Notes: a model not told the origin generated them from the sequence alone. Numbered from the stretch's first letter, positions 2,789-49,143 are shown. The stretch: 61,105 nucleotides of DNA from an uncultured Flavobacteriales bacterium (GCA_913056345.1 CAJXMH010000016.1:1-61105); one strand, 5' to 3'. Numbers and translations: made by a program.

Positions 2789-2790
2789 GG

Positions 2791-2822
2791 AAAAAAGGCA
2801 AAACTTTCGTTTCGCCCTTTTT
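2791..2822. terminator. Putative bidirectional terminator
   Basis: Imperfect hairpin between convergent genes: GGC-A-AAAC, loop TTTC, GTTT-C-GCC, flanked by an A6 tract on the left and a T5 tract on the right. It could end transcription of the nitroreductase gene on the plus strand and of the lipoprotein gene on the minus strand. Confidence 0.6.
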
Positions 2823-2843
2823 AATCTGATAAAGCTATGGGTG

Positions 2844-33951: not shown

Positions 33952-34679
33952 GACAGTTTGGACTTTTAGGCAAAAAACTAGGTCATTCCTTCTCTAAGAA
34001 ATACTTCACTGAAAAGTTTAATAAACTAAACTTAAGCGACTGTAAATACGAGCTATATGAGCTAGAAAGAGTTCAAGAATTCACTACCTTAGTGAAGGAA
34101 AATAACTTTTCAGGATTAAACGTTACGATTCCTTACAAGGAACACATATTACCCTATCTTGACAAATTTGATCCTGTTGTTGAGCAGATAGGAGCTTGCA
34201 ACACCATTGCTTTTCAAAATGATAAGCTAATTGGTTACAATACCGATGTAATTGGGTTTGAAAAAAGCCTGATTCCATACCTAGCCCCTATACACAGCTC
34301 TGCTCTTATACTTGGAAATGGTGGAGCATCAAAAGCAGTACAATACGTTTTAAAAAAACGATCTATCCCCTTTTTTATCGCAAGTAGAACACCTCAAGAT
34401 CAAGCAGAAGTCTCCTATTCCGAATTAGACTCTAAAACGCTTGCTCGATTCAAATTGATCATCAATACAACACCACTAGGCATGCACCCGAATACCAAAG
34501 AAATGCCAAAGGTCGATTGCTCTCTTCTGACTGAAGACCATCTAGTCTATGACTTGATTTACCAACCGGCAGAAACCTTATTTTTAAGTGAAGCAAAAAA
34601 GAGAGGAGCGACTATTCTAAATGGACTAAGCATGCTTCGCTTACAAGCTGAGGCATCTTGGAAAATATGGAACGAATAA
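33948..34679 (+). CDS. aroE: Shikimate dehydrogenase
   Basis: 243 residues starting at a GTG that overlaps the DUF368 stop (GTGA). Shikimate-binding motifs are GKKLGHSFSKKYF (S-x-S type) and LNVTIPYKEHILPYLD with the catalytic Lys-Asp pair; IGACNTI and GYNTDVIGF follow. The NADP site is LGNGGASKAVQYVL. It reduces 3-dehydroshikimate to shikimate. Slightly shorter than the enterobacterial enzyme, as is common in Bacteroidota. Last gene of the operon; it converges with the MFS gene after 1 bp. Confidence 0.95.
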   Translation: MRQFGLLGKKLGHSFSKKYFTEKFNKLNLSDCKYELYELERVQEFTTLVKENNFSGLNVTIPYKEHILPYLDKFDPVVEQIGACNTIAFQNDKLIGYNTDVIGFEKSLIPYLAPIHSSALILGNGGASKAVQYVLKKRSIPFFIASRTPQDQAEVSYSELDSKTLARFKLIINTTPLGMHPNTKEMPKVDCSLLTEDHLVYDLIYQPAETLFLSEAKKRGATILNGLSMLRLQAEASWKIWNE

Positions 34680-34680
34680 G

Positions 34681-35898
34681 TTAATCCAAAAGCCTTTTCC
34701 GGAAAGCTGCTAGGCTGATGATCATGGAAAGTAGAATAAGCAGAGCAGCCAAAACAAAGGGAGAACCAGGAAAGTGAAAACCACTATCCTCTTGCGTAAA
34801 AGCATAAAAGATATTCGTCATGATCAAGGGGCCAAAAATGGCAGTAAGAGCTATTAAAGAAGTTAAAGCACCTTGTAACTTACCTTGCTCTTGATTGGAA
34901 TACTGATTTGACAAAGTGCTTTGTAAAGTAGGAGTTGCAACACCACCCAAACAATAAGGCAGTACAAAAACAAAAAGCATCCAACCTTCAGTTGCAAAGG
35001 CAAATAATAACAAACCGATAATCCACATCGAATAACCAATAAATATGGTCTTTAACTCACCAAACCAAAGTACAAAGCGCTTTACTAGCAAACCCTGTAC
35101 TATAGCAACAGCAACCCCTACCACGCCTAAGGAATAACCCACTTTGGTTTCATCCCAATCAAACTTATACATAGAAAAGAATGTCCAAGTGGATTGAACC
35201 GCATGAGAAGCTAAATAAAGCAGAAAGAAAGCTATGGCAAGAGCTGAAACCAAGCCTTTTTGACTTAATAACTTAAAAGAACCAACTGGATTAGCTTTTC
35301 GAAAATTGAGTTGTGTATCTCTGTTTTCAACTGCTAAGGATTCAGGTAAAATAAACCAACCGTAGAAGAAATTGAGCAAAGTGAGCCCTGCTGCAATTAA
35401 AAAAGGCAGTTGTATAGAATACTTTGCTGCTAACCCACCAATTACGGGTCCAATGATAAAACCCAAACCAAATGCAGCTCCAATGACTCCAAAGTTCTTA
35501 GCTTTTTCTTCCGCTGCACTAATGTCTGCAATATAAGCGGTAGCAACAGTATAACTAGCTCCGCAAATGCCTGCAATAATACGTCCGACGAATAACCAGG
35601 TCAAAGAAGGTGCATAGGCATGGAGAAGGTAATCAAGACCTAAACCAAAAAGTGCAATAAGCAAGATTGGCTTTCGCCCAAAGCGATCACTTAAGCTTCC
35701 TAAAAAAGGAGCAAAGAAAAACTGCATAAAAGAATAGGAAAAAATCAACCACCCTCCTATTCTAGAAGCTTCACTCAAGCCGGAACCATGCAAGCTTTCA
35801 ATTAAACTTGGCAAAACAGGGATAATAATGCCAAAGCCAATAACGTCGATTAAAATGGTAAAGAAAATAAAACTGAGAGAAGCGTTCTTGTTCTTCAT
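34681..35898 (-). CDS. MFS transporter, TCR/Tet family
   Basis: 405 residues, 12 transmembrane helices. Motif A is GSLSDRFGRKPILLI between TM2 and TM3; motif C is GFIIGPVIGGL in TM5; TM1 has LIDVIGFGIIIPVLPSLI, typical of TetA-like drug:H+ antiporters. It exports hydrophobic compounds by proton antiport; the substrate is not predictable and resistance should not be assumed. It ends one base after aroE on the opposite strand. Confidence 0.9.
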   Translation of the reverse strand: MKNKNASLSFIFFTILIDVIGFGIIIPVLPSLIESLHGSGLSEASRIGGWLIFSYSFMQFFFAPFLGSLSDRFGRKPILLIALFGLGLDYLLHAYAPSLTWLFVGRIIAGICGASYTVATAYIADISAAEEKAKNFGVIGAAFGLGFIIGPVIGGLAAKYSIQLPFLIAAGLTLLNFFYGWFILPESLAVENRDTQLNFRKANPVGSFKLLSQKGLVSALAIAFFLLYLASHAVQSTWTFFSMYKFDWDETKVGYSLGVVGVAVAIVQGLLVKRFVLWFGELKTIFIGYSMWIIGLLLFAFATEGWMLFVFVLPYCLGGVATPTLQSTLSNQYSNQEQGKLQGALTSLIALTAIFGPLIMTNIFYAFTQEDSGFHFPGSPFVLAALLILLSMIISLAAFRKRLLD

Positions 35899-35955
35899 TG
35901 AAAAATCAAAATTAGACTTCTAGTTGCAGTAATGTTTATCTTTAAACCAAAACAA

Positions 35956-36351
35956 ATGGGCAAAATAGAAGGCATAGGTGGAATTTTCTTTAAATGTGAT
36001 GATCCAAAAAAAATAAAAGAATGGTATAGCAAAAAGCTTGGCATTAAAACCGACGATTATGGAGCTTTGTTTGAATTTAGAACAGCTGAAAACCCTGATC
36101 AAAAAGCCTATCTGCAATGGAGTCCGTTTGAAAAAAACACACCGTATTTTAAACCCTCTGAAAAAGAGTTTATGATAAACTACCGTGTTTCAGATATTGA
36201 AGACTTAGTCGAAGAACTAAAAAATAAGGGCGTAGAGATCTTAGATGAAATAGAAGAGTTTGAATACGGTAAATTCATACATATTCTAGATCCTGAAGGA
36301 AATAAAATTGAACTTTGGGAACCAAAAAATGAAGAAAAATCCTTTGGCTGA
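35956..36351 (+). CDS. VOC family (glyoxalase-like) protein
   Basis: 131 residues from the ATG at 35956; an in-frame ATG at 35932 would add eight residues lacking family similarity. One vicinal-oxygen-chelate unit pair: GIGGIFFKCDDPKKIKEWYSKKLGIK, then INYRVSDIEDLVEELKNKGVEILDEIEEFEYGKFIHILDPEGNKIELWEP with the C-terminal metal Glu in IELWEP. The expected first metal His is replaced by a GGIFF context, so the reaction is uncertain. Stand-alone small cytoplasmic protein. Confidence 0.87.
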   Translation: MGKIEGIGGIFFKCDDPKKIKEWYSKKLGIKTDDYGALFEFRTAENPDQKAYLQWSPFEKNTPYFKPSEKEFMINYRVSDIEDLVEELKNKGVEILDEIEEFEYGKFIHILDPEGNKIELWEPKNEEKSFG

Positions 36352-36358
36352 GAATAGC

Positions 36359-37222
36359 TTATTGCGGGAAGGTAACAGAAGCAAGCTTAATCACCTCGGC
36401 CAATGCTGTTTGATCAATTATTTCCAAGCCTTCCTGCTCTGAAAAATGAGCGATCATCTTTTCAGTTGGCATATTTCCGGTTAGCTCATCTTTAGCCATA
36501 GGGCAACCTCCGTAACCTTTAATTGCCCCATCGAAACGGCGGCAACCTGCATGATAGGCTGCATCAATCTTCTCTTCCCAGCTATTTGGAGTAGTATGGA
36601 AATGCGCCCCAATTTCTAACTCAGGAAACTCAGGAGTTAATGTTTTAAATACCCGCTCAATGATAGCCGGTTCAGCTATCCCAATCGTGTCACTCAAGGC
36701 GAAAATCTTGATGTCTAATTTTTTGAGCTCAAGCAAGTACTCTGCTAAAAGTTCTTCATGAAAAGGGTCGCCATAGGGATTGCCAAAGCCCATAGAAAGG
36801 TAAACCACCAATTCTTTATTGGACTTAACGGTTTTGTTTTGAATGTCTTCAAGACGAACTTTTGATTCTTCAATGCTTGCATTGGTGTTGCGCTTCTGAA
36901 AGGTCTCTGAAATTGAAAAGGGATAACCTAAATAACTAATCTCATCATATTGAACGGCATCTTCCGCCCCTCTTTGGTTAGCAACAATGGCTAAGAGTTT
37001 AGTTTTCGTTTCGCTTAGGTCGAGCTTGCCAAGCACTTCAGCTGTATCTTTTAGCTGGGGTATGGCTTTGGGAGAAACGAAAGAGCCAAAATCAAGGGTA
37101 TGAAAGCCTATATTTAGAAGCAGTTGTAGGTACTCAACCTTGGTTTGGGTTGGTATAAAAGTCTCAATGCCTTGCATGGCATCTCTTGGACATTCAATTA
37201 GCTTAAGCTCTTTTTTCTTCAT
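36359..37222 (-). CDS. Hydroxymethylglutaryl-CoA lyase family protein
   Basis: 287 residues from the ATG at 37222. The HMGL-like TIM barrel starts [20 protein letters not shown] (where Arg-Asp correspond to the catalytic and metal residues) and ends with metal ligands in EIGAHFHTT, and [29 protein letters not shown] carries the essential loop cysteine GGCPMA. It cleaves HMG-CoA to acetoacetate and acetyl-CoA in leucine degradation. The start lies inside the 3' end of pyrD (20-bp overlap), so the two genes form an operon. Confidence 0.9.
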
Positions 37223-38249
37223 ACTTTGCAATTGCTTGATTCATTTTTTTGATCATGGCAGGGCCTTCATAAACAAAGCCCGTATAAATTTGCACCAATT
37301 GGGCACCAGCTTCTAGTTTTTCGATGGCATCTTCTGCTTTAAAAATTCCGCCCACCGCAATAATGGGTGTTTGCTTTAGCTTACTTCTTAAAAAACGGAT
37401 CACTTCAGTAGACCTAGTTTGCAATGGTTTTCCACTTAGACCGCCTGCACCTATTTTCTCCACATAGTTAGCGTCCGTTTTTAGACCTGAGCGATCAATA
37501 GTTGTATTGGTGGCGATTAAGCCATCCAAGTCAACTGATTTGGTAATTTCAACAATATCGAGTAGTTGACTTTCAGTAAGATCAGGAGCTATTTTGAGTA
37601 AAATTGGTTTAGGAGCCTCATGAGCTTGGTTTGCTGCTTTAATTGCTGTGAGCAAACGCTTTAAAGGTTCCTTTTCTTGTAGCTCCCTCAAGTTTGGCGT
37701 GTTAGGAGAGCTCACATTTACCACAAAGTAATCAACATGATCTTTTAGGGCATGAAAACACTTAAGGTAATCGTCTGTAGCCTGCTCATTGGGGGTTAAC
37801 TTGTTCTTGCCGATATTTCCACCTACTATGATTTGGCTCTTCCGTTTTTTTAAGCGCTTGAGCATACTCTCCAAGCCCTCATTGTTAAATCCCATGCGGT
37901 TGATCAAAGCCTGGTCTTCAGCTAAACGAAAGAGACGTGGCTTTGGATTTCCTTCTTGAGCTTTTGGGGTAACCGTTCCAACTTCTATAAAACCAAAACC
38001 AAAGCAGGCTAATTCATCAATTAACTTGGCATCTTTATCAAAACCAGCTGCAAGTCCCACAGGTGAGTCAAATTTCAATCCAAATACTTCCCGCTTAAGG
38101 CTGTTAGGCTTTTTTGCATACCAATTGGCACACATTTTTTTGGACCAAGCTGAATTTAGTGACTTTTTGATCCAAGAAAAAACCTGATAGTGAACCTTTT
38201 CGGGATCTGAACGAAAAAGAATTGGTCTTATGACTGATCTGTAAATCAT
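37203..38249 (-). CDS. pyrD: Dihydroorotate dehydrogenase (quinone), class 2
   Basis: 348 residues. Class 2 hallmarks: an N-terminal hydrophobic helix ([13 protein letters not shown]...), [45 protein letters not shown] for FMN and orotate, the catalytic serine in [13 protein letters not shown], and [11 protein letters not shown]-terminal phosphate sites are IIAVGGIF and [13 protein letters not shown]. It is membrane-associated and passes electrons to menaquinone in pyrimidine synthesis. A -7 box ends 4 bases before the ATG, predicting a leaderless mRNA. Confidence 0.95.
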
Positions 38250-38265
38250 CTTACAAAAGTAAACT
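38249..38265 (-). promoter_or_regulatory. pyrD promoter overlapping an XRE-operator-like element
   Basis: The minus strand reads AGTTTACTTTTGTAAGA. It contains an exact -7 box TACTTTTG (38254-38261) and matches, at 15 of 17 positions, the element TGTTTACTTTTGTAACA at 40334-40350. The shared 14-bp core GTTTACTTTTGTAA is at 38251-38264. The -7 box ends 4 bases before the pyrD ATG, so transcription would start at about the start codon. Confidence 0.5.
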
Positions 38266-38328
38266 TTGTTGGGTGTAAAACGTCTTTTTCAGCTAGCAGT
38301 AGAAATTTATTATTTTCCTTTGTTAATT

Positions 38329-38751
38329 ATGGAAGAATTTGGATTTGTATTAAAGAAAGAATTAGATTTTGCTAAAATCTGGATTAACAGCGAATACGGT
38401 ATTATTTTGATCGATTTTCTTCCCTACCAAACTGTTGGTCTAAAAGAAGCACAAATTTTAGAATCAAACATTCTACAACTTCTTGATAAAGAAGAGAAAG
38501 TTTTTGGAATTACCAGGCTAAATGATGGTTCTGATATGGATGATAAAGCAAGGGAGTATTTTGCAAAATGCTCGCTGACCGTAAAGCATACAAAAGCACT
38601 CGCAGCTGTATTTGATAACTTAGGCCATCGTATATTGTACAATGTTTACTTAAAGATTAATAAACCAGGCATTCCAATGAAAGGATTTGCTAACTTGCAA
38701 AAGGCTGTTAATTGGTTGGTAGAAAAAAAAAGTATTGAATCATTACGATAA
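38329..38751 (+). CDS. Small SpoIIAA/STAS-like protein, paralogue A
   Basis: 140 residues from the ATG at 38329. First of three tandem paralogues of a Bacteroidota family (DUF7793-like; assigned by pattern, not by search). Shared blocks: ELDFAKIWINSEYGIILIDF at the N-terminus, a central KAREYF, and C-terminal LAAVFDNLGHRILYNVYLKINKPGIPMKGFANLQKAVNWL. The alternating beta-alpha pattern fits the SpoIIAA/STAS fold; no catalytic residue is obvious. TTCCTTTG at 38315-38322 may be a weak -7 box. The end overlaps paralogue B by 17 bp. Confidence 0.8.
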   Translation: MEEFGFVLKKELDFAKIWINSEYGIILIDFLPYQTVGLKEAQILESNILQLLDKEEKVFGITRLNDGSDMDDKAREYFAKCSLTVKHTKALAAVFDNLGHRILYNVYLKINKPGIPMKGFANLQKAVNWLVEKKSIESLR

Positions 38752-39139
38752 AAAATATGAGTTAGCCTTAGATCTGGGCTTTGCTACCATATTCCACAAT
38801 AAGCAAGATGGAATCCTGCTTATTCGTTATACAGAAGAGACAGAAGTAGACCTAACCAAGGCTGAGATTGTGATCGACTCGGTCCATAAAATCCTTAAAG
38901 ATGGCAAAACTCCCTATGGCTTCACAGATGCTACAGCTAAAAGAATACACATAACGCCTGCTGCAAGGAAAGCTTACCGAGACAATCCAAGTATGCGCCT
39001 GAATAAAAAACATGCAATTCTAGTAAAAGGACTTAGCAATAGAATTTTGGCAAATGCCTTCATTAAATATGATAAGCCCATTGTCGACTCGAAAATATTT
39101 AATGACTTCCAAGATGCCGAAACTTGGCTTTTATCCTAA
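38735..39139 (+). CDS. Small SpoIIAA/STAS-like protein, paralogue B
   Basis: 134 residues from a TTG start inside the 3' end of paralogue A; no in-frame ATG upstream of the conserved region exists. Same layout as A: ALDLGFATIFHNKQDGILLIRYT, then VDLTKAEIVIDSVHKILKDGKTPYGFTDATAKRIHITPAARKAY, then HAILVKGLSNRILANAFIKYDKPIVDSKIFNDFQDAETWL. The 17-bp overlap implies coexpression with A. Function unknown. Confidence 0.75.
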   Translation: MNHYDKKYELALDLGFATIFHNKQDGILLIRYTEETEVDLTKAEIVIDSVHKILKDGKTPYGFTDATAKRIHITPAARKAYRDNPSMRLNKKHAILVKGLSNRILANAFIKYDKPIVDSKIFNDFQDAETWLLS

Positions 39140-39198
39140 AAAACTTGACCATTTCTCTTACCACCTTTCTAACCAATATACCAGAGGTTTATAAAATA

Positions 39199-39228
39199 TT
39201 GTGAAATTGCTATTTTATTTTACCTTTG
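39199..39228 (+). promoter_or_regulatory. Bacteroidota-type promoter of paralogue C
   Basis: TTG at 39199-39201, a 19-bp spacer and TACCTTTG at 39221-39228. Both boxes and spacing match the Bacteroidota consensus. The TTG start at 39246 follows after a leader of about 10 bases, and C therefore has its own promoter. Confidence 0.7.
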
Positions 39229-39245
39229 GTTAAAGTAAAAAGTAA

Positions 39246-39650
39246 TTGAAAGGTTTTGTTTGCATAAAAGAACTCGACTTTGTAAGCTTTTTAGTCGCAG
39301 TTGAGAATCAAATCCTTTTAAGCAAGTACAAGGATAACTCGACGATAGACAAGGTAAAAGCTTTACAAATAATAGAAGATTCCTATACTTTTATAAAGTC
39401 TTATAAACTAAATTACGGATTAATAGATAACCGCGCAGCTTTTTTAAACACTACCGAGGAGGCAAGACAACTATTGAGTAATAATAAAAGCCTTAAACTG
39501 TTAAAGGTACAAGCAGTCTTAGTCAAAACCCTTGCAGACCGCATAAACACCAACTACTTTATCCAAGTATCTAAACCAATAATTCCCTTTAAGGCCTTTG
39601 AAGAAGAAGTGAAGGCTTTGAAGTGGCTAGAAAATTTCAAGACGGCTTAA
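39246..39650 (+). CDS. Small SpoIIAA/STAS-like protein, paralogue C
   Basis: 134 residues from TTG at 39246, just downstream of a good promoter; there is no usable ATG before the conserved region. Layout as in A and B: CIKELDFVSFLVAVENQILLSKYK, TIDKVKALQIIEDSYTFIKSYKLNYGLIDNRAAFLNTTEEARQLL, VQAVLVKTLADRINTNYFIQVSKPIIPFKAFEEEVKALKWL. The last 14 bp overlap the convergent XRE regulator gene. Function unknown; it could be a regulatory partner like other STAS-like proteins. Confidence 0.75.
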   Translation: MKGFVCIKELDFVSFLVAVENQILLSKYKDNSTIDKVKALQIIEDSYTFIKSYKLNYGLIDNRAAFLNTTEEARQLLSNNKSLKLLKVQAVLVKTLADRINTNYFIQVSKPIIPFKAFEEEVKALKWLENFKTA

Positions 39651-40044
39651 ACTCCCGAAAAGTCTGGTCAGAATAAAAAACCACGATGCGTTCAACTTCT
39701 TTCTTAACTCCATAAGAAATAGGCTCTTCTGAACGAACAATACTTTCCGACAAACTCTCATCAGCTCGTTTCTCCTTCTCCTGATCATCCTCTATGAACG
39801 ATTGATCTTCTGGGACTGGTTTAATGTTTTTTTGCTGCATATTGGTTGAACCATTAACTAACCAGTTTGCATCTACCTTCGGAAATCGATTCAATACCTT
39901 TTGCACAAACTCCAAACTTGGCTTATTTCGACCTGAAAGCACATGCGAAATAGAGGAACGTTGCACCCCAATTTGTTCTGCAAAAGCTGAAGCTGAAAGC
40001 TGATTCAACTTCATAATATACTTCAACCGCTCACTAATATCCAT
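39637..40044 (-). CDS. XRE family helix-turn-helix transcriptional regulator
   Basis: 135 residues from the ATG at 40044. The N-terminal HTH_XRE domain is MDISERLKYIMKLNQLSASAFAEQIGVQRSSISHVLSGRNKPSLEFVQKVLNRFPKVDANWLVNG, with recognition helix RSSISHVLSGR. After an acidic Lys/Glu linker, the C-terminus ends VKKEVERIVVFYSDQTFREFKPS, a tail common in Bacteroidota members. It lies convergent with paralogue C. Its upstream region carries many GTAAAC/GTTTAC elements, so autoregulation is likely. No phage genes are nearby. Confidence 0.92.
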   Translation of the reverse strand: MDISERLKYIMKLNQLSASAFAEQIGVQRSSISHVLSGRNKPSLEFVQKVLNRFPKVDANWLVNGSTNMQQKNIKPVPEDQSFIEDDQEKEKRADESLSESIVRSEEPISYGVKKEVERIVVFYSDQTFREFKPS

Positions 40045-40062
40045 CTTTACTTTTATTCGTTT

Positions 40063-40350
40063 TTGTAAACAACAACAATTATACACAATTGTAAACAAAA
40101 GTTATCAGTTCTAATTTGAATCTTGTAAACATAATTCTCAACCTGCCTTCAAACTCGATATTTATATAAACTAAAGGTTTATTTATCACATTTAAACAAC
40201 TCGAAAAGAATAAATTAGCGAGAAATAAGAAACTTTAGCTCGATATGTTTACAATGTGTTACTATCTATGTGATACAATTGTAAACAAAAGAGGCTCTAC
40301 TAAATCTGTTTACCGATGTAACAAGACTTAGGTTGTTTACTTTTGTAACA
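40063..40350. repeat. Cluster of GTAAAC/GTTTAC operator-like elements
   Basis: The 476-bp gap between the XRE gene and the TonB receptor gene holds no gene I can support. It contains TTGTAAACA at 40063, 40089, 40123 and 40279, its complement TGTTTACAA at 40246, and two 17-bp dyads TGTTTAC-N3-TGTAACA at 40307-40323 and 40334-40350. The 17-mer ACAATTGTAAACAAAAG occurs twice (40085-40101 and 40275-40291). The last dyad contains an exact TACTTTTG box (40338-40345). These are likely binding sites of the XRE regulator. Confidence 0.6.
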
Positions 40351-40470
40351 GCGTTAGTAGCAAATCCATTTTTTAGCCACTGATTATTTCTAGTTCTCTC
40401 ATTAATTGGAGCCCTCCCATTCTCGACACTTTCATCTATAAAATAGGGCGTATAAAGTCTATTATTCTAT

Positions 40471-40488
40471 TTTTAGGCTTGTCTAAAT
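40471..40488. promoter_or_regulatory. Putative DtxR/MntR-type operator of TonB receptor gene
   Basis: TTTTAGGCTTGTCTAAAT: half-sites TTTAG and CTAAA start 11 bp apart. It matches 13 of 18 positions of the dyad in front of the DtxR-type regulator gene (44145-44162) and sits just upstream of the -7 box, a normal repressor position. Confidence 0.55.
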
Positions 40489-40490
40489 TG

Positions 40491-40508
40491 TTAGATTTGC
40501 AAATCTAA
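40491..40508. promoter_or_regulatory. 18-bp perfect palindrome containing TonB receptor -7 box
   Basis: TTAGATTTGCAAATCTAA is a perfect palindrome. Its left arm contains an exact -7 box TAGATTTG (40492-40499), 21 bp before the ATG at 40521. It may be a second regulator site. Confidence 0.6.
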
Positions 40509-40520
40509 ATTTTGGTTTTT

Positions 40521-42920
40521 ATGAGCATAAAGTTTGGTATGATTTATAGACTTACCCTCCTACTCTTTTCTTTTTTAGTTTTCAATGACGGCTTTGCCCA
40601 AAATGCGTCTTTTAAAGGAGAGGTGCTTAATAATGAACAAGAGCCCATTCCCTATGCTTCAGTTTCACTGAAAAGCAAAAGTCTTACGGGAGTTTCAGCA
40701 AATGAAAAGGGGCACTTTGAACTAAATCAGATTGTACCAGGCACTTATCTCTTGACAATCTCTGCGCTTGGTTACCGAACTTATCAGGACTCTATTCAAT
40801 TTAAAGATGCTGAGGTTGTAAAAAGGCAAATTAGTTTGAATCCTGATGTATTTAACTTGTCTCAAGTGGTGATTACCGGCTCTCGCAACAGAGTTGAGCG
40901 TTATAATTCTCCTGTAATCGTTAATTCTCTAGATGCTAAAACCCTTGAATCTACTCAGTCTTTTAATTTAGCAGAAGGCCTGAATTATACTCCAGGCTTA
41001 AGGGTAGAGAATAATTGTCAAAACTGTGGTTTCACTCAAATCCGTATGAATGGACTAGATGGTGCCTACTCTCAAGTATTGATCAACAGTAGACCGGTAT
41101 TTTCAGCTCTAGCAGGCGTTTATGGTCTGGAAATGATCCCCACTAATATGGTCGACCGTATTGAAGTGGTTCGAGGGGGTGGTTCTGTTATGTTTGGCGG
41201 AAATGCGATTGCCGGCACTGTAAACATCATTACGAAAACACCGCTTGAAAACACCTTTGAAGTTGGCCTTAATCAATCACTGATCAATGGAGAAGCATCA
41301 GATCGAACTGTAAACTTTAACGGTGCTTTAGTAGCTGAGGACTTGAATAAAGGAATCTCATTTTTTGGATTTAATCGAAATCGAGAGCACTGGGATGCCA
41401 ACGGGGATGGATTTTCTGAAATAGTAGCGCTGCAAAACAACACCTTTGGGTTTGATGCATTTTATAAGCTAAACGACCAAAGTGAATTTAAACTAGGGGC
41501 TTATTTTATAGAAGAATTCCGAAGAGGAGGCAACAAATTTGACTTATTCCCACACCAAACAGATCTTACAGAACAATTGGAACATACTATTCTCAATACC
41601 AACTTTTCATTTGATCATAGCAGTAAAAACAACAAGCACCATTTTTCACTTTACGGTTCCATTCAAAGCGTAGATAGAGCAAGCTACTATGGAGGTGGCG
41701 GCCGAGTATTGAGCCCCGGTGACTCCTTAACTGAATCAGACTTGATCGCAATTAATGCTTATGGTAATTCTAATGACTTTGCCAGTGTTAGCGGTTTACA
41801 GTATCGCTATGAGTTTAAAAAGAACCTAAACCTTACTGTGGGTTCAGAATACATCTATAATGATGTAAAAGATGAAATGCCCGGTTATGACAGGTTGATC
41901 GAACAAAAAGTTGGCACTTGGGGAACTTTTGCTGAAGTTGAATATCAGCCTAGCGCGCGACTTACTCTTTTAGCAGGTGGTAGACTTGATCAACTCAATA
42001 TTGATGGAAACTACAATCTAGCCACCCAAAGCTTTCAAAATAAAGAGCAGATCAATGTTCTTGTACCGCGCCTTTCCGCTATGTATCAGCTTCAGGAAAA
42101 CTTGAAGGTCCGTGCTTCCTTTGCCCAAGGGTATCGAGGTCCACAAGCGTTTGATGAAGACCTACACATCGAAACAGTGGGTGGAGCAGCTCGATTTATA
42201 CAACTGCAAGCCGGCTTAGAAGTTGAACGATCAAATAGCACTACCGTTTCTCTTAATTACGATAAGTTTCATGACAATAAGCAATTCAACTTTGTGCTAG
42301 AAGGATTTTATACTGAACTAAGCAACCCTTTTATTTTCTCAGATCAAACTGAATTACCAAATGGTGTGGCAATTATTAATAAGCGAAATGGTTCGGGCGC
42401 AATTGTAAATGGAATTAACTTAGAAGCAAATGCAGCCTTGGGAAGCAAAGTTGTTTTACAGTCAGGAGCAACTATTCAAGAAGCAAATTATCTAAATGAA
42501 GAAGAAATTTGGGCTCCTGAATCTTCCTCAAATGAACTTGTAGCGACTAACACTCGAAGCTTGTTAAGAACACCTAACACCTACGCCTACTTTTCTTTAA
42601 TCTATTCCCCCAAAGAACAATTTACCTTTGCTTATTCTGGGATCTACACCGGTTCAATGGATGTAGCTCATGTTATAGATGCTGAAACCGAACGCACCGT
42701 AATCAAACGAACGCCCAATTTCTTTGAAAACAACTTGAAATTTAGCTACACACTTAAAATTGACGACCACTATCGATTTGAATTTTTCACAGGTGTTCAA
42801 AATATCTTTGACAGTTTTCAGCGTGATTTTGATCTTGGTGCAGAACGCGATGCAGGCTATGTTTATGGACCACTAAGACCACGAACCTTTTTTCTTGGTC
42901 TAAAAATGGGCTTAAACTAA
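40521..42920 (+). CDS. TonB-dependent outer-membrane receptor, probable metal importer
   Basis: 799 residues from the ATG at 40521. The signal peptide ends FAQ (~residue 27), then a carboxypeptidase-regulatory-like domain (ASFKGEVLNNEQEPIPYASVSLKS, ~28-107), then the plug (~115-235) with IRMNGLDGAYSQVLINSRPV and RIEVVRGGGSVMFGGNAIAGTVNIIT, then a ~560-residue beta-barrel ending FFLGLKMGLN. The plug carries NNCQNCGF with Cys166 and Cys169, a possible metal-binding pair. An operator shared with the downstream DtxR-type regulator gene suggests Mn, Zn or Fe uptake rather than sugar uptake; there is no SusD partner. Substrate assignment is inference. Confidence 0.92.
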   Translation: MSIKFGMIYRLTLLLFSFLVFNDGFAQNASFKGEVLNNEQEPIPYASVSLKSKSLTGVSANEKGHFELNQIVPGTYLLTISALGYRTYQDSIQFKDAEVVKRQISLNPDVFNLSQVVITGSRNRVERYNSPVIVNSLDAKTLESTQSFNLAEGLNYTPGLRVENNCQNCGFTQIRMNGLDGAYSQVLINSRPVFSALAGVYGLEMIPTNMVDRIEVVRGGGSVMFGGNAIAGTVNIITKTPLENTFEVGLNQSLINGEASDRTVNFNGALVAEDLNKGISFFGFNRNREHWDANGDGFSEIVALQNNTFGFDAFYKLNDQSEFKLGAYFIEEFRRGGNKFDLFPHQTDLTEQLEHTILNTNFSFDHSSKNNKHHFSLYGSIQSVDRASYYGGGGRVLSPGDSLTESDLIAINAYGNSNDFASVSGLQYRYEFKKNLNLTVGSEYIYNDVKDEMPGYDRLIEQKVGTWGTFAEVEYQPSARLTLLAGGRLDQLNIDGNYNLATQSFQNKEQINVLVPRLSAMYQLQENLKVRASFAQGYRGPQAFDEDLHIETVGGAARFIQLQAGLEVERSNSTTVSLNYDKFHDNKQFNFVLEGFYTELSNPFIFSDQTELPNGVAIINKRNGSGAIVNGINLEANAALGSKVVLQSGATIQEANYLNEEEIWAPESSSNELVATNTRSLLRTPNTYAYFSLIYSPKEQFTFAYSGIYTGSMDVAHVIDAETERTVIKRTPNFFENNLKFSYTLKIDDHYRFEFFTGVQNIFDSFQRDFDLGAERDAGYVYGPLRPRTFFLGLKMGLN

Positions 42921-42946
42921 TGGCTTTAATTTATATTTTAGAGCAT

Positions 42947-42968
42947 AAAAAAACCGGCTCTCGCCGGT
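42947..42968 (-). terminator. Terminator of the small Cys-rich protein gene
   Basis: Stem ACCGGC / GCCGGT with loop of four; on the minus strand it is followed by seven Ts. It lies 9 bp past the stop of the 42977-43225 gene. On the plus strand the T run is missing, so it is a weak terminator for the TonB receptor gene. Confidence 0.8.
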
Positions 42969-42976
42969 GTTAAATT

Positions 42977-43225
42977 TTAAGCTGATGCTTCCTGTGGGGC
43001 CCACGAGCTGCAGAGCATTCCAATTGCTGCTTTGTTGGGGTTTGCACAGGCCTCTTGTTTAAATTTTGCACAATTGCCACAATTGTTTTCATTTTTCAAT
43101 TTTGCTTTCATGGAAAAACTGTCACAAGTGTGTTGCGGACTTACATCTACTTTATGTTTTCTGCAAAAATCATCATCGGTTACAAATTCACAGTTTAAAC
43201 AGTTATTTGATAATCGAATAGCCAT
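42977..43225 (-). CDS. Small double C4 cysteine-cluster protein
   Basis: 82 residues from the ATG at 43225 (a GTG at 43246 is possible). Eight cysteines form two repeats: Cys9-x2-Cys12-x8-Cys21-x12-Cys34 and Cys49-x2-Cys52-x7-Cys60-x11-Cys72. Each begins NNCxNC (NNCLNCEF and NNCGNCAKF), like the plug motif of the adjacent receptor. No signal peptide, so it is cytoplasmic. It probably binds zinc or another metal, or an Fe-S cluster; function unknown. It converges with the TonB receptor gene. Confidence 0.82.
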   Translation of the reverse strand: MAIRLSNNCLNCEFVTDDDFCRKHKVDVSPQHTCDSFSMKAKLKNENNCGNCAKFKQEACANPNKAAIGMLCSSWAPQEASA

Positions 43226-43325
43226 AGTGTTAGGTTTTTGGTTCACACACCTAACGTCAAGCAGGCAACATCGTTTAATAAATAACTAATCCCTATTTAG
43301 AATAAATTAAAATAAGCTATCCAGT

Positions 43326-44129
43326 CTATTGAGGTAGACGAATACTCAGACCGATAGTATGGAAGTTCATGCTTCGATTTAACCCAAAACCATAAACGTA
43401 ATCTAGTTGTAAGTTTTCTTTTAACAAATACGTTAATCCCACATCTGCATTGGTTTCCCAATCCTCCAACTCTACTGCAGTGGTAAAAAATTCTGCGAAT
43501 ACCGTTAATTGATCAGACATACTTTGGCTGTAGGCCAAGGTGTAAATAAAATTACCTTCTGCTCTCCTCACAAGGCCTTCAGGCGCAAAGTCAAGAAATT
43601 CATTTACGTAAGCAATGTTTGAACCCAAACTTCTTTGCTCATCAATTTCATAAGCTAAATTTAACCTACCCATGGTACCGTATAATTCATTGGTAATACC
43701 AGTTGAACCTGTAGGTAAAAAAACATGTCCTTGTAATGCCATGACCAAGCGATCTTCTTTAGACTTAAGTTGGTACTTAAGTCCCAGTTGAACATTCTCA
43801 GTACCTCTTACCCTATTCTCATCCAGTCTTCCTGTGGGATCAATCAAGCGGTAAGCCACCAATTGATTCACCATACGGAGCTCAAATTTTTCACTTAAAC
43901 CAATTCGAAATAAATTAATGGGGTAAGAAGTCCTTTCTTGAACCAATCCACCTCCCACTTCATAACGCTCGAATAAAACACCACTTTCAATCTGTAGCTC
44001 TCCTGGTCTTATTACAGTGGCAGCTTCTGTTTGATTTGGTCGATCTGTGGCAATATTCTGAGCTAAAGTTTTCTGGCTAAAAACAAGAGCCGTGGCGCTT
44101 AATAAGATCAATACAAATTGCTTTAACAT
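43326..44129 (-). CDS. Outer-membrane transporter-like protein (MetA-pathway phenol-degradation family)
   Basis: 267 residues. The signal peptide ends TLAQ at ~residue 24; the mature protein starts NIATDRPNQTEAATVIRPGELQIESGVLFER, the opening signature of the beta-barrel family annotated as MetA-pathway of phenol degradation. Regular barrel strands follow, ending FHTIGLSIRLPQ. The family name reflects early gene context, not a proven activity. It is divergent from the DtxR-type regulator gene, and the dyad at 44145-44162 lies between them, so metal control is plausible. Confidence 0.8.
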   Translation of the reverse strand: MLKQFVLILLSATALVFSQKTLAQNIATDRPNQTEAATVIRPGELQIESGVLFERYEVGGGLVQERTSYPINLFRIGLSEKFELRMVNQLVAYRLIDPTGRLDENRVRGTENVQLGLKYQLKSKEDRLVMALQGHVFLPTGSTGITNELYGTMGRLNLAYEIDEQRSLGSNIAYVNEFLDFAPEGLVRRAEGNFIYTLAYSQSMSDQLTVFAEFFTTAVELEDWETNADVGLTYLLKENLQLDYVYGFGLNRSMNFHTIGLSIRLPQ

Positions 44130-44134
44130 ACTTT

Positions 44135-44162
44135 CTAAATTAATTTTTAGACTACCCTAAAA
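44135..44162. promoter_or_regulatory. Putative DtxR/MntR-type operator array
   Basis: TTTTAGACTACCCTAAAA at 44145-44162 is the second copy of the dyad found before the TonB receptor. Another CTAAA at 44135 extends the array: half-sites CTAAA, TTTAG and CTAAA begin at 44135, 44146 and 44157, exactly one helical turn apart. It sits between the divergent porin and regulator genes. Confidence 0.6.
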
Positions 44163-44177
44163 GTAGTGCTTATTGCT

Positions 44178-44185
44178 TAACTTTG
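44178..44185 (+). promoter_or_regulatory. -7 promoter element of regulator/tro operon
   Basis: TAACTTTG, an exact TAnnTTTG match, 16 bp after the operator array. It covers an in-frame TTG at 44183, which rules that codon out as the translation start. Confidence 0.6.
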
Positions 44186-44200
44186 TCGAAAATAAACATT

Positions 44201-44854
44201 TTGCTATCCTTAACAGAAGAAAATTACTTGAAGGCAATTTTTAGCCTCAACCGAGAAGTGGCCGAAAGTGCTACCACCAATGCCATTGCCGAAAAGCTTG
44301 ATACCAAAGCCTCTTCAGTTACTGACATGATGAAAAGATTGAGCAAGAAAGATTTGGTAAACTATCAGAAGTATCAAGCTGTAAGCCTTACCAAAAAGGG
44401 CAAAGAAGTGGCTATTTCCATCATTCGAAAACACCGTCTTTGGGAGCTATTTTTAGTAGAAAAACTCCATTTTAAATGGGACGAGGTGCATGACATTGCA
44501 GAACAACTAGAGCATATCAAATCAACGCAACTAACTGATCGACTTGACGCTTTCTTAGGCTTTCCTGATCAAGACCCACACGGAGACCCGATACCAAATA
44601 AAGAAGGACAATTTCCTGAAGATGGTAGAACAACCCTAAGTGAATTAAATCAAAAAACAAGCTGTAAAGTAGTTGGCGTAAAGGACCACAGCAGTAGTTT
44701 TTTAAGCTATTTAGAAAGCATGGACATTGAATTGAACACCATTATCCAAATCAAGACCCATCATGCTTTTGATTCATCTATGGAGATTTTGATTGAAGGA
44801 AAAAAAGAGGCACATATCTCGAAAGAAGTTGCACAAAATTTATACGTAGAATGA
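44201..44854 (+). CDS. DtxR/MntR family metal-dependent transcriptional regulator
   Basis: 217 residues if started at TTG 44201, giving MLSLTEENYLKAIFSL, the usual beginning of this family; the TTG at 44183 is inside the promoter. The winged helix ENYLKAIFSL ... ASSVTDMMKRLSKKDLVNYQKYQAVSLTKKG is followed by the dimerization/metal domain (RKHRLWELFLVEKLHFKWDEVHDIAEQLEHIKS ... GFPDQDPHGDPIP, with His/Glu ligands) and a C-terminal FeoA-like SH3 domain (LSELNQKTSCKVVGVKDHSS). It is a metal-activated repressor, probably of itself, the tro genes and the TonB receptor. ATGA overlap with troA. Confidence 0.93.
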   Translation: MLSLTEENYLKAIFSLNREVAESATTNAIAEKLDTKASSVTDMMKRLSKKDLVNYQKYQAVSLTKKGKEVAISIIRKHRLWELFLVEKLHFKWDEVHDIAEQLEHIKSTQLTDRLDAFLGFPDQDPHGDPIPNKEGQFPEDGRTTLSELNQKTSCKVVGVKDHSSSFLSYLESMDIELNTIIQIKTHHAFDSSMEILIEGKKEAHISKEVAQNLYVE

Positions 44855-45774
44855 AATCTAGGTCACTCATAATCATTCTATTAGCTTCTTTACTGTTGTT
44901 TTCTTGCCAAGAGGGCAAACAACAAACTGAAAGTGATGGTGAGATCAAAATTGTTTGCACTACGGGCATGCTCGGTGATTTGGTTCAAAATCTAATCGGC
45001 ACTCAAGCTGAAGTTATTAGCCTTATGGGCCCCGGTGTAGACCCCCACCTTTACAAAGCAAGTCAAGGTGACCTCAAAAAATTGAGTGAGGCAGACATCA
45101 TCATTTACAATGGCCTACATCTAGAAGGTAAAATGGGCGAAATTTTTAAAAAACTGTCAAATCGTAAAACCATTTTAGTCGCTGCTGACGCAATTGATCA
45201 GGAATTACTTATCAACAGTAGCGACTTTCAGGGCGCTTATGACCCCCATATTTGGTTTGACCTTCAATTATGGAAAAAAGTAGCCACTCACCTAGCCCAA
45301 GAATTAAGTGAAGAAAAAGCTTTCAAAGCTGACAGCATCCAATACAGGCTTGAGCGATATGCTTTCAAACTAGACAGCTTGGATGAATGGGTAAAGGAGC
45401 AGATTTTACAAATCGACTCTTCTAAACGGGTGCTTATTACCGCTCATGATGCCTTTGGTTATTTTGGTAAGGCTTATCAAATTGAAGTAAAGGGATTACA
45501 AGGTATTTCAACGGTTTCGGAATATGGCTTAAAAGATGTCAGTGATCTAGTGAATTTTATCAGTGAAAGAGGAATCCGTTCGGTTTTTGTTGAAAGCTCT
45601 GTTTCAGATCGCGCTTTAAAAGCGGTGGTAGAGGGTTGTAAAAGCAAGGGGCATGCAGTTCAAATTGGAGGTACACTATATAGCGATGCGATGGGTGAAG
45701 CAGGCAGCACAGAAGGCAACTACCTTGGAATGGTGCAACACAATGTTAATACCGTAGTAGAAGGATTGAAATGA
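44851..45774 (+). CDS. troA: Metal ABC transporter substrate-binding lipoprotein, TroA type
   Basis: 307 residues. Lipobox LLFSC (Cys19). The cluster A-I metal-binding fold has ligands His66 (GVDPHLY), His133 (DPHIWFD), His199 (ITAHDAFGYFG) and Asp279 (LYSDAMGEAG), the His3Asp set and spacing known for Treponema TroA, which binds Zn and Mn. Segments EVKGLQGISTVSEYGLKDV and TEGNYLGMVQHN are also TroA-like. It delivers Mn or Zn to the permease. A 247-bp gap containing repeat-like DNA separates it from the ATPase gene. Confidence 0.93.
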   Translation: MKSRSLIIILLASLLLFSCQEGKQQTESDGEIKIVCTTGMLGDLVQNLIGTQAEVISLMGPGVDPHLYKASQGDLKKLSEADIIIYNGLHLEGKMGEIFKKLSNRKTILVAADAIDQELLINSSDFQGAYDPHIWFDLQLWKKVATHLAQELSEEKAFKADSIQYRLERYAFKLDSLDEWVKEQILQIDSSKRVLITAHDAFGYFGKAYQIEVKGLQGISTVSEYGLKDVSDLVNFISERGIRSVFVESSVSDRALKAVVEGCKSKGHAVQIGGTLYSDAMGEAGSTEGNYLGMVQHNVNTVVEGLK

Positions 45775-45837
45775 GAATAAAAAGTTCAAGAGATGAAGAG
45801 AAAAAGAATTGAAGCGTTGATGAGTCTAATAGTAGCT

Positions 45838-45955
45838 TGTCAGTTCGAGTGATCCCGAAACTTCGGGGTAGTATCGAGAACAAAAAGCGAATAGGTAAGC
45901 AATCCTAATTGTATAACCGCTAAGACCACCAAGAATCCACAAAGAACGCTAAGCA
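45838..45955 (+). repeat. Intergenic repeat-like element between troA and troB
   Basis: The 247-bp gap (45775-46021) has no gene. It contains CAGTTCGAGTGAT followed by the hairpin CCCGA-AACT-TCGGG (45854-45867) and GTATCGAGAAC, a motif I recognise as recurring between genes in Bacteroidota genomes. A second phrase at 45915-45955 (ACCGCTAAGACCACCAAG...) is also of a kind often seen as dispersed repeat. Copy number cannot be seen in this window, where each occurs once. Confidence 0.5.
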
Positions 45956-46021
45956 AGTGAACTTCGAGAACTTATAGTAGGCTTCGAGCCCATTACGGTT
46001 AAGAAAAGGAGAGAATACAAG

Positions 46022-46801
46022 ATGAATGATAAAACAGCCATAGAAGCGCATAACTTAACGGTCAGCTATAACCGCAGGCCAGTTTTGTGGAATGTCGACT
46101 TTGAACTGCCCGCAGGACAAGTAATTGGCATTATTGGTCCGAATGGTTCAGGTAAAACCACTTTGCTCAAAGCTATTATGGACTTGGTAAAGAAAAGCAG
46201 CGGCTATGTTAAACTCTTTGAACAAGATCTAGAAGAGGTAAGAGAACGAATCAGCTATGTTCCACAAAGAGAGTCTGTAGATTGGGATTTTCCTGCTTCG
46301 GTGATGGATGTGGTTTTAATGGGCAGATACCGAAAGAACAAATTGCTGAAAAGGCTAAGTAAAGCCGATCGCGATCTTGCAGCTGAAGCTTTAGAAAAAG
46401 TCAACATGCTTGAGTACAGCAACCGACAGATCAGCCAATTGAGCGGTGGACAGCAACAGCGGGTCTTCATTGCTCGTTCCTTAGCCCAAGGCGCAGACCT
46501 TTACATCATGGACGAACCTTTCGTAGGTGTAGATGCAGCAACTGAAGAAGCCATCATGCTTCTGATGCAGGAGATGAAAAAGGAAGGCAAAACTGTGGTA
46601 GTGGTGCATCACGATCTTCAAACAGCAAAGCTCTATTTCGACTGGATCGTATTACTCAACACACGCTTGGTAGCTTCAGGACCAAAGGATCAGATCTTTA
46701 ATGAAGCACTTTTACAAGAAGCATACGGAGGTAAGTTAAATGTTTTGAGCAAGGTAGGCGAATTGATCAAAGAAAAAGACTTTCCTGTAAGAGAAAAGTA
46801 A
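46022..46801 (+). CDS. troB: Metal ABC transporter ATP-binding protein
   Basis: 259 residues. Walker A GPNGSGKTTL (~residues 39-48), Q-loop YVPQRE, the ABC signature LSGGQQQR, Walker B DLYIMDEPFVGVD and the H-loop VVVHHDL are all intact. The PQRESVDWDFP and MGRYRKNKLLKRLS segments are characteristic of the Mn/Zn (TroB/MntA-type) subfamily. It powers import together with the two permeases encoded right after it; the stop of this gene and the next ATG are one base apart. Confidence 0.93.
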   Translation: MNDKTAIEAHNLTVSYNRRPVLWNVDFELPAGQVIGIIGPNGSGKTTLLKAIMDLVKKSSGYVKLFEQDLEEVRERISYVPQRESVDWDFPASVMDVVLMGRYRKNKLLKRLSKADRDLAAEALEKVNMLEYSNRQISQLSGGQQQRVFIARSLAQGADLYIMDEPFVGVDAATEEAIMLLMQEMKKEGKTVVVVHHDLQTAKLYFDWIVLLNTRLVASGPKDQIFNEALLQEAYGGKLNVLSKVGELIKEKDFPVREK

Positions 46802-46802
46802 A

Positions 46803-48098
46803 ATGAAGGAAACCCTTGAATTCTTCAGCTTTAGCGACCCAAATGTTAGGTTTGTAGTCTTAGGAACCATGATTTTAGGGGCCACTGCCGCTATGGTGGG
46901 CAGTTTTGCATTTTTACGCAAAAGAGCTTTAGTTGGTGATGCTATTGCACATGCTATTTTACCAGGGGTTTGCCTTTCCTTTATGGTTTCAGGAGACAAG
47001 AATCCCATAGCCTTGATTATTGGTGCCGTGATTAGCGGTTGGCTTTCTTTAATGGTGATTGATGGGATAAGTCGCACCACCAAATTGAAGAGCGATGCAG
47101 CTATTGGCATTGTACTGAGCGTCTTCTTTGGTTTTGGAATCCTGCTATTGACCTCCATTCAAAACTCTGGCAATGCGGCACAATCGGGTTTGGATAACTT
47201 CCTCTTTGGAAAAGCAGCCTCCTTAACTCAAGATGACATTCTGATCTTCAGTGGAATTGGTCTGGTGCTAATAGTGCTGGTACTGCTTTTTTACAAAGAG
47301 TTCAAACTCATATCATTCAACCCTGATTATGCGAAGGTTATAGGCCTACCGGTTAAGTTTCTTGAGTTTTTATTGGCAACCATTACAGTGCTATCAGTTG
47401 CTGTAGGCATACAGGCTGTTGGCGTAGTTTTAATGGCGGCGCTTTTGATCACACCTGCTTCTGGAGCACGTTTTTGGACCAACAAACTGAGCTATATGAT
47501 CTTAATTGCAACAGTATTCGGCGCCTTATCTGGCTTAATGGGTTCTTATGTAAGTTATGTTGCACCTGCAATGCCTACTGGGCCATGGGTGGTCATGTGC
47601 CTTTCTTTGCTTACGATTTCTTCCATTTGGTTTGCGCCCAAAAGGGGCATGTTTGCCCGCTTCAAACAGCATCGTGACAACAAGAAGAAGATCCTGCAGG
47701 AAAATATCTTAAAGCTATTCTATCACCTAGGGGAAGCAAATCAGGACTTTGAAGCCGGTAGAAGCTTCGCTACTTTAAAGGCTAGTCGAGAACTCTCTGA
47801 AAGTGAACTAGACCGTGGCTTAAAACTATTGAAACAGCAAAATTACCTGCGTAAAATGACTGATCTGTGGTACATTACACAGGCAGGTCTTGAAGCATCA
47901 AAGCGGGTAATTAAACTTCACCGACTGTGGGAGATGTACTTAAACCAACGATTAAAACTAGAGCCTGACCATGTACACAATGATGCAGAAGCAATAGAGC
48001 ACATTATCACCCCTGAAATTGAACAACAGCTAGAGCGTGAGTTAGACTTTCCGGTTAAAGACCCCCATCAAAGCACCATTCCATATCAAGAAAGCTAA
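46803..48098 (+). CDS. troC: Metal ABC permease fused to a DtxR-like regulatory domain
   Basis: 431 residues. Residues 1 to ~285 are an ABC-3 family permease with 8-9 transmembrane helices (FLRKRALVGDAIAHAILPGV; AVGIQAVGVVLMAALLITPASGARFW). From ~290 to the end is a soluble DtxR-like module: a winged helix (ENILKLFYHLGEANQDFEAGRSFATLKASRELSESELDRGLKLLKQQNYLRKMTDLWYITQAGLEASKRV) and the metal/dimer domain (KLHRLWEMYLNQRLKLEPDHVHNDAEAIEHIITPEI ... FPVKDPHQSTIP). The frame is continuous, so this is not an assembly error. The domain might sense cytoplasmic metal and gate transport. Confidence 0.93.
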   Translation: MKETLEFFSFSDPNVRFVVLGTMILGATAAMVGSFAFLRKRALVGDAIAHAILPGVCLSFMVSGDKNPIALIIGAVISGWLSLMVIDGISRTTKLKSDAAIGIVLSVFFGFGILLLTSIQNSGNAAQSGLDNFLFGKAASLTQDDILIFSGIGLVLIVLVLLFYKEFKLISFNPDYAKVIGLPVKFLEFLLATITVLSVAVGIQAVGVVLMAALLITPASGARFWTNKLSYMILIATVFGALSGLMGSYVSYVAPAMPTGPWVVMCLSLLTISSIWFAPKRGMFARFKQHRDNKKKILQENILKLFYHLGEANQDFEAGRSFATLKASRELSESELDRGLKLLKQQNYLRKMTDLWYITQAGLEASKRVIKLHRLWEMYLNQRLKLEPDHVHNDAEAIEHIITPEIEQQLERELDFPVKDPHQSTIPYQES

Positions 48099-48101
48099 GC
48101 C

Positions 48102-48968
48102 ATGGATGGATTTTGGATCATACTAAGCGGAACATTGATTGCCATTTCTTGTGGCCTTTTGGGAGCCTATTTGGTATTAAGAAAAATGGCCATGGTTGGT
48201 GATGCCATCTCTCATGCTGTTTTACCTGGCATCGTTTTAGCCTATTTGTTTTCAGGAAGCAGGGAAACCATACCCATGTTAATCGGTGCAGCCGTTTTAG
48301 GGGTGCTTACCACTGTTTTGATCGAGCTTTTTTACAAGCAAGCAAGACTTCAGATAGATGCCTCTATTGGCATCACTTTCACCTGGTTATTCGCTATTGG
48401 CATCATCTTAATTTCCGTTTTTGCCGGACAAGTAGATCTAGATCAGGATTGTGTGCTCTACGGAGAAATTGCTTACGTTCCTTTAGACCTTTGGTTCACC
48501 GCATCGGGCATTAATTTAGGTCCGCGCACCGTTTGGATTGCCGCTACCCTACTGCTTTTAATCTTAACCTTTATTTATTTTGGGAGAAGAGGCTTGTTCA
48601 TCACTACCTTCAATGAGGAGTACGCTAAAGCCTTGGGCTTAAACGTGGCCTTTTGGCATTATGCCTTAATGGGTTCTGTTTCCTTAACCACCGTTGTATC
48701 CTTCGAATCTGTAGGCGCAATCTTAGTGGTTGCCTTTTTGATCGTCCCTCCTGCCACGGCTTACCTCATTACTACTTCCTTAAAACCCATGCTTTGGCTT
48801 ACGGCTTTCTTTGGTTTCTTAAGTAGCTTAGGAGGTTACTTCTTAGCTGTTTGGATCAACGGTTCTATAGCAGGCGCTATGGCAACTGTAGCCGGGATAT
48901 TCTTTTTGTGCGTTTGGATCTTCTCCCTTATTAAACAAAAGCAAGCTTCAATTCCTTTCCGGGCATAA
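48102..48968 (+). CDS. troD: Metal ABC transporter permease
   Basis: 288 residues, 8-9 transmembrane helices, ABC-3 family (GAYLVLRKMAMVGDAISHAVLPGIVLAYLF; TTVVSFESVGAILVVAFLIVPPATAYL). It lacks the regulatory tail of its partner and has the normal length. It begins 3 bp after the fused permease. The two permeases are expected to form a heterodimer with two TroB ATPases. The 175 bp after it contain no recognisable terminator or gene. Confidence 0.92.
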   Translation: MDGFWIILSGTLIAISCGLLGAYLVLRKMAMVGDAISHAVLPGIVLAYLFSGSRETIPMLIGAAVLGVLTTVLIELFYKQARLQIDASIGITFTWLFAIGIILISVFAGQVDLDQDCVLYGEIAYVPLDLWFTASGINLGPRTVWIAATLLLLILTFIYFGRRGLFITTFNEEYAKALGLNVAFWHYALMGSVSLTTVVSFESVGAILVVAFLIVPPATAYLITTSLKPMLWLTAFFGFLSSLGGYFLAVWINGSIAGAMATVAGIFFLCVWIFSLIKQKQASIPFRA

Positions 48969-49110
48969 AACAACTATGTAACAATTTACCGCATTCATGA
49001 AGTCATAGCGGCTATCAATGAAATAGTACTTGAATCCTTCCAAACTTCAAGCGATCTTGCTCTTTTAAAGCAAAAGAGAATTTAACATTTAATAAGAAAA
49101 CGATCAGCCA

Positions 49111-49122
49111 TTGGTAATTTTA
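49111..49122 (+). promoter_or_regulatory. Putative promoter element (TTGGTAATTTTA) of jelly-roll gene
   Basis: TTGGTAATTTTA contains TAATTTTA, one base from the -7 consensus. The identical 12-mer occurs before the next T9SS gene (52643-52654). Confidence 0.35.
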
Positions 49123-49143
49123 TCAAATAACACAATATACATT

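Follow-up and report, generated by a model that had tools for sequence, protein, structure and literature searches.

A shared 18-bp dyad as the probable operator of a DtxR/MntR-type regulator upstream of its tro genes and a TonB-dependent receptor in a Flavobacteriales bacterium

Only in a small number of bacteria is it known how manganese passes the outer membrane. In Stenotrophomonas maltophilia, a 2026 study describes a predicted MntR box before the gene of a TonB receptor with a CQNC plug motif and a thioredoxin-fold module (PMC13217887). The study reports synteny in Lysobacterales, Sphingomonadales, and Opitutales, and mentions no taxon beginning with Bacteroid (PMC13217887). In Porphyromonas gingivalis, PgMntR binds the promoter of the manganese-transporter operon to which it belongs, and does so more tightly with Mn2+; the terms "palindrom", "operator", and "TonB" do not occur in that paper (PMC4805248). 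DR2539 of Deinococcus radiodurans is a dual Mn/Fe regulator (PMC3327659).

The window analyzed here, a stretch of 61,105 nucleotides from an uncultured Flavobacteriales bacterium (GCA_913056345.1 CAJXMH010000016.1:1-61105), contains two related 18-bp dyads, neither assigned to a strand. Operator 1 (TTTTAGGCTTGTCTAAAT, 40471–40488) lies upstream of the gene for a TonB-dependent receptor (40521–42920, + strand), and operator 2 (TTTTAGACTACCCTAAAA, 44145–44162) lies between the gene for a porin-like outer-membrane protein of the Phenol_MetA_deg family (43326–44129, − strand; Pfam) and the divergent gene for a DtxR/MntR-type metalloregulator (44201–44854, + strand). Both dyads were found where the first-pass annotation had placed them, and its agreement of 13 of 18 positions was reproduced; the match rises to 15 of 18 when one dyad is reverse-complemented. 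Its description of the half-sites as identical is nearly exact, because the left halves are identical and the right halves differ only at the last base (CTAAAT/CTAAAA). From the sequence evidence given below, it is highly probable that both dyads serve the neighboring regulator as operators, through which the receptor, porin-like, and regulator-tro genes would be repressed in a metal-dependent manner.

The regulator operon encodes a TroA/MntC-type ABC system on the + strand, consisting of a TroA/ZnuA-type metal-binding lipoprotein (44851–45774; Pfam, NCBIfam), a metal ABC transporter ATPase of the MntA/TroB type (46022–46801; Pfam, NCBIfam), a metal ABC permease that ends in a DtxR-like metal/dimer domain (46803–48098; ABC-3 at residues 15–277 and Fe_dep_repr_C at 359–427), and a second permease, TroD (48102–48968; Pfam). 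The DtxR-like tail of the first permease carries a full metal ligand set (HRLWE ... VHNDAEAIEH), and permeases of about 430 aa with such a tail recur in many relatives. The tail might sense metal and thereby act as a brake on transport. A search for Rfam RNA elements found none in 34000–52000.

The regulator, with a probable TTG start at 44201, has an HTH domain, a dimer/metal domain, and a FeoA domain (Pfam). Its PF01325 and PF02742 matches (53.9 and 110.5 bits) both exceed the cut-off, giving the DtxR/MntR architecture. It is the sole DtxR-family DNA-binding protein of the genome, in which the other PF02742 match is the permease tail; the genome also encodes two Fur-family proteins. In an alignment of 80 regulators, with positions given in DtxR numbering, the ligand residues H79, E83, H98, E102, E105, and H106 were present in all 80, including the MntR-like Glu at the position of DtxR Cys102; the corresponding stretch in the window regulator is HRLWE...VHDIAEQLEH. 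The first metal-ligand position is Asp in MntR and Met in DtxR. The window regulator and all 80 relatives have Asn there, not the Asp of MntR (Asp8 in Bacillus subtilis), so that the metal preference is not readable from known MntR or DtxR proteins. The best score of the regulator with an NCBIfam MntR equivalog was 147.3 bits, below the cut-off of 350.

The receptor has a CarboxypepD_reg domain, a plug with a CQNC motif (C166 and C169), and a barrel (Pfam), and both cysteines are invariant in an alignment of 18 receptor sequences. Its AlphaFold model is that of an ordinary TonB receptor (pLDDT 82.5), and the best PDB matches of the model were all TonB receptors, namely Cir, PirA, PfeA, and BtuB, with the copper receptor OprC ranked lower; such fold matches of a predicted model do not tell the cargo. 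An EF-hand-like loop, DANGDGFSE, occupies residues 292–300 (window 41394–41420). Its D292, D296, and E300 are fully conserved in CQ-type receptors, which suggests a possible second metal site. Between the receptor and porin-like genes, positions 42977–43246 (− strand) hold a cysteine-rich ORF of 89 aa in which CxxC motifs recur (NCLNC, NCGNC) and which has no match in Pfam or NCBIfam; it follows the porin-like gene in the same orientation and is convergent with the receptor.

Manganese is, as we infer, the likeliest metal. The same operator and regulator could instead serve the sensing and import of iron or zinc, or the regulator could sense Mn and Fe both, a reading we consider less likely. 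The CxxC plug suits thiophilic metals, and plug cysteines would fit Zn, Cu, or Fe at least as well as Mn; the Asn ligand of the regulator is unusual, the substrate-binding protein scored best with the zinc protein AztC, although below the cut-off, and the structural relative DR2539 responds to Mn and Fe (PMC3327659). However, the Glu shared by all 80 regulators at the Cys102 position speaks for manganese, the regulator and ATPase scored best with manganese models of NCBIfam, though all below cut-off, and the two Fur-family proteins might take care of iron or zinc. In Stenotrophomonas, moreover, receptors of the CQNC type are reported to be under MntR control (PMC13217887).

Conservation of the operator was evaluated at 80 loci with relatives of the regulator (51–61% identity) from named Bacteroidota genomes, in which 350 bp upstream was scanned. 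The exact dyad TTTTAG-N6-CTAAAA was found upstream of the regulator at 28 of the 80 loci, compared with 0.8% of random stretches, and a dyad with one mismatch at a further 30 (2.7% of random stretches), so that 58 of 80 loci have a dyad with at most one mismatch, compared with 3.5%; most of these lie 50–85 bp ahead of the first aligned regulator codon. A similar dyad lies 25–135 bp upstream of the regulator at 66 of the 80 loci. The 18-mer of operator 1 is identical to the regulator's own operator at two of the relatives' loci (L022 and L076). Presence and absence were compared in 41 genomes, i.e., the window's own and 40 relatives. The strict box was absent from all three genomes lacking the regulator (G003, G023, and G031) and present in 33 of the 38 genomes having it, a split with a probability of about 0.005 by chance (hypergeometric, from these counts).

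These comparisons bear on the idea that another transcription factor binds the box and co-regulates the same genes. Conservation of a dyad does not by itself tell which protein binds it, and an HTH regulator gene (39637–40098) adjoins the receptor; nevertheless, the box tracks the regulator gene over 80 loci, is missing where the regulator is missing, and stands upstream of the regulator in most arrangements, which makes such a factor very improbable. The neighboring DtxR/MntR-type regulator remains the preferred candidate. The data show directly that the box is conserved and specific, where it is placed, and that it accompanies these genes.

A symmetric weight matrix was built from the 66 operators upstream of orthologous Bacteroidota regulators, with the window excluded from training; the spacer was informative as well, roughly aCwwGt. 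In the window, the site at 40471 scored 24.7 bits and that at 44145 scored 21.6 bits, followed by a next best of 11.9 bits. The same two sites were the top two in matrix score among the listed candidates of the genome, which were those within one mismatch of two patterns. Under a second-order Markov model, 0.07 sites of at least 21.5 bits are expected per genome, and 40 Mb of such sequence contained no site that reached 24.7 bits. Among 18 lower-scoring genome candidates inspected, 17 were inside ORFs and one was between convergent genes, and therefore none was accepted as a further regulon member; as far as this pattern-based search reaches, the two operators of the window are the only ones of the genome that lie in promoters.

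Counting the loose pattern TTTTAG-N6-CTAAAA was uninformative. With three mismatches, the window gave 115 occurrences against 99 expected by chance, which is only slightly above chance level, and with two to three mismatches the genome gave 613 against 515 in the control; since so loose a pattern is common anyway, the test of the dyads must come from elsewhere. That the likeness of the two dyads is mere chance in AT-rich DNA, a reading suited to this slight enrichment in the window, is contradicted by the independent matrix, the genome ranking, the phylogenetic conservation, and the expectation of 0.07 sites per genome, and has next to no probability.

The promoter elements were located relative to the operators. 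The exact −7 box (TAnnTTTG) that the first-pass annotation had seen near each dyad was confirmed: TAGATTTG, in the receptor promoter (40492–40499, + strand), begins 4 bp past operator 1, and TAACTTTG, in the regulator-tro promoter (44178–44185, + strand), begins 16 bp past operator 2, which would place operator 2 at or near the expected −33 element. Among 66 aligned operators of regulator relatives, 61 have TAnnTTTG downstream, compared with 7% after shuffling, and the element mostly starts 8 or 24–31 bp after the box. Of 72 box-bearing receptor promoters, 52 have TAnnTTTG within 62 bp downstream of the box, with a start 3–10 bp after the operator in 49 of these 52. Both operator placements in the window, at offsets of 4 and 16 bp, would be expected to hinder RNA polymerase. 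A weak candidate for the promoter of the porin-like gene is TAATTTAG (44135–44142, − strand), with one mismatch from the −7 box. The three half-sites, one helical turn apart, that had been noted at 44135–44161 are present as letters, but the additional half-site is probably due to chance and was rejected, because a half-site at the 44135 offset occurs in just 3 of 66 relatives. A perfect 18-bp palindrome, TTAGATTTGCAAATCTAA, the only one in the window, overlaps the receptor −7 box at 40491–40508; its core, TTTGCAAAT, occurs in G007 as well, and it may possibly be a second regulatory site.

Repression and the cargo of the receptor are, like the metal, inferred from these data, and the following scheme is proposed. 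When metal, most likely Mn2+, is plentiful, a metal-loaded regulator dimer would sit on the box, which stands just ahead of the −7 element in the receptor promoter and at or near −33 in the regulator-tro promoter, and RNA polymerase would be blocked. When metal is scarce, the repressor would leave the DNA; the CxxC-plug receptor would then be made for active import across the outer membrane, together with the porin-like protein, whose divergent gene has operator 2 in common, and the regulator-troABCD operon would be switched on for import across the inner membrane.

Gene arrangements in relatives were consistent with joint control. Two relatives (G006 and G018) have the window order of porin-like gene, box, regulator, and troABCD, with a shared divergent box. 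In G007, a receptor 68% identical to that of the window occupies the porin position and is transcribed away from the regulator, a single box serving both, and in G004 the receptor gene precedes that of the regulator in tandem. Receptors unlinked to the regulator are of particular weight, because at loci chosen by their regulator any divergent receptor necessarily has the same box. Eleven CxxC receptors are on a contig other than that of the regulator, and of these, eight (in G009, G011, G015, G019, G024, G034, G038, and G040) have a box of at least 18 bits, compared with none of 19 control TonB receptors, although the genomes are drafts and some separate contigs could be close on the chromosome. 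The remaining three scored lower (G028, 10.1 bits; G037, 8.4 bits; and G016:C17, 3.2 bits, with a 7-bp spacer variant).

Nearly all box-bearing receptors have a plug CxxC, and the 19 control or weak-match TonB receptors have neither CxxC nor box, with scores of at most about 5. In a tree of 92 receptors, the CQ[NT]C (23) and C[NSGA][VI]C (46) groups are each set apart by a well-supported branch; for the CQNC and CQTC receptors of Bacteroidota, which lie together on one side of theirs, the support is 100. The box is present before nearly all receptors of both groups. An initial idea that the box always goes with a CxxC receptor was given up because of four receptors of a third type (L025, L028, L081, and L091), which have the box without CxxC, indicating that the motif is common but not required; these four, from Salegentibacter and Gillisia, have a strong box and adjoin the regulator. 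Conversely, five CxxC receptors have no good box (L119, L125, L127, L138, and L236_3348).

In summary, the prediction of the first-pass annotation that a single DtxR-type regulon comprises the receptor, the porin-like protein, the regulator, and the tro genes was supported by the box conserved upstream of orthologous regulators, by the divergent operator shared with porin-like or receptor genes in relatives, by the boxes before receptors on contigs other than the regulator's, and by the lack of a strict box in the three genomes without a regulator. This one-regulon reading, drawn from comparative sequence data, is strongly supported owing to the genome ranking, the chance expectation, the sole DtxR protein, the conservation, and the receptor association. 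Two relatives have boxes before other genes: in G035, a 26.5-bit box (L207:2000–2017) lies about 30 bp before a gene for a di-haem oxidoreductase, a putative peroxidase (2047–3246), which suggests a possible wider regulon, and in G039, a 20.7-bit box (L224:2000–2017) precedes an OprB-type porin gene (2101–3414).

The recurrence of the box before the same kinds of genes suggests a Bacteroidota control of outer-membrane uptake of manganese or a similar metal. A broader proposal, about as likely as not, is that a Bacteroidota-wide manganese box (TTTAGnCnnGnCTAAA) and an MntR-type regulator with the Asn ligand control receptors that import free or weakly chelated Mn2+ via the plug CxxC, with the CQ[NT]C and C[NSGA][VI]C receptors as distinct lineages that came under the same box. 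For a large phylum, the analysis thus defines an operator, a single regulator, and a family of receptors whose plug motif is a candidate metal site. No paper was found to contain the literal operator sequence, in a literature search whose incompleteness limits any claim of novelty.

The best PDB sequence matches of the regulator were DtxR-family manganese regulators, namely 5zr4, SloR (5cvi), ScaR (3hrs), and 8pvt (DR2539). These share the fold and most ligand positions with the window regulator, which differs in having Asn as the first ligand; the likeness is at the protein level. OprC of Pseudomonas aeruginosa (6z8y), the TonB-type metal receptor among the fold matches, has about 14% identity to the receptor; OprC binds copper partly through a plug cysteine, and its plug motif is not known to be CxxC. 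PgMntR is likewise a DtxR-family regulator of Bacteroidota, but it differs in its twin FeoA domains, its Cys108-bridged center, and its control of a FeoB-type transporter (PMC4805248). The MntR-controlled CQNC receptor of Stenotrophomonas is the closest precedent; the present case is its counterpart throughout the Bacteroidota, where the operator is a different one. S. maltophilia and the window have in common a receptor with a CQNC plug, a predicted regulator box in its promoter, and a manganese uptake gene under the same regulator; they differ in the inner-membrane importer, MntH there and the tro ABC system here, and in the box, a 25-bp palindrome there and an 18-bp dyad here (PMC13217887). 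In the same account, a thioredoxin-fold gene follows the S. maltophilia receptor (PMC13217887), whereas none adjoins the window receptor, the next gene being the convergent 89-aa cysteine-rich ORF, which lacks CAPC. The Stenotrophomonas finding, made independently, is now linked to Bacteroidota, and together the two cases indicate that receptors with a CxxC plug are paired with MntR-type regulators in phyla far apart.
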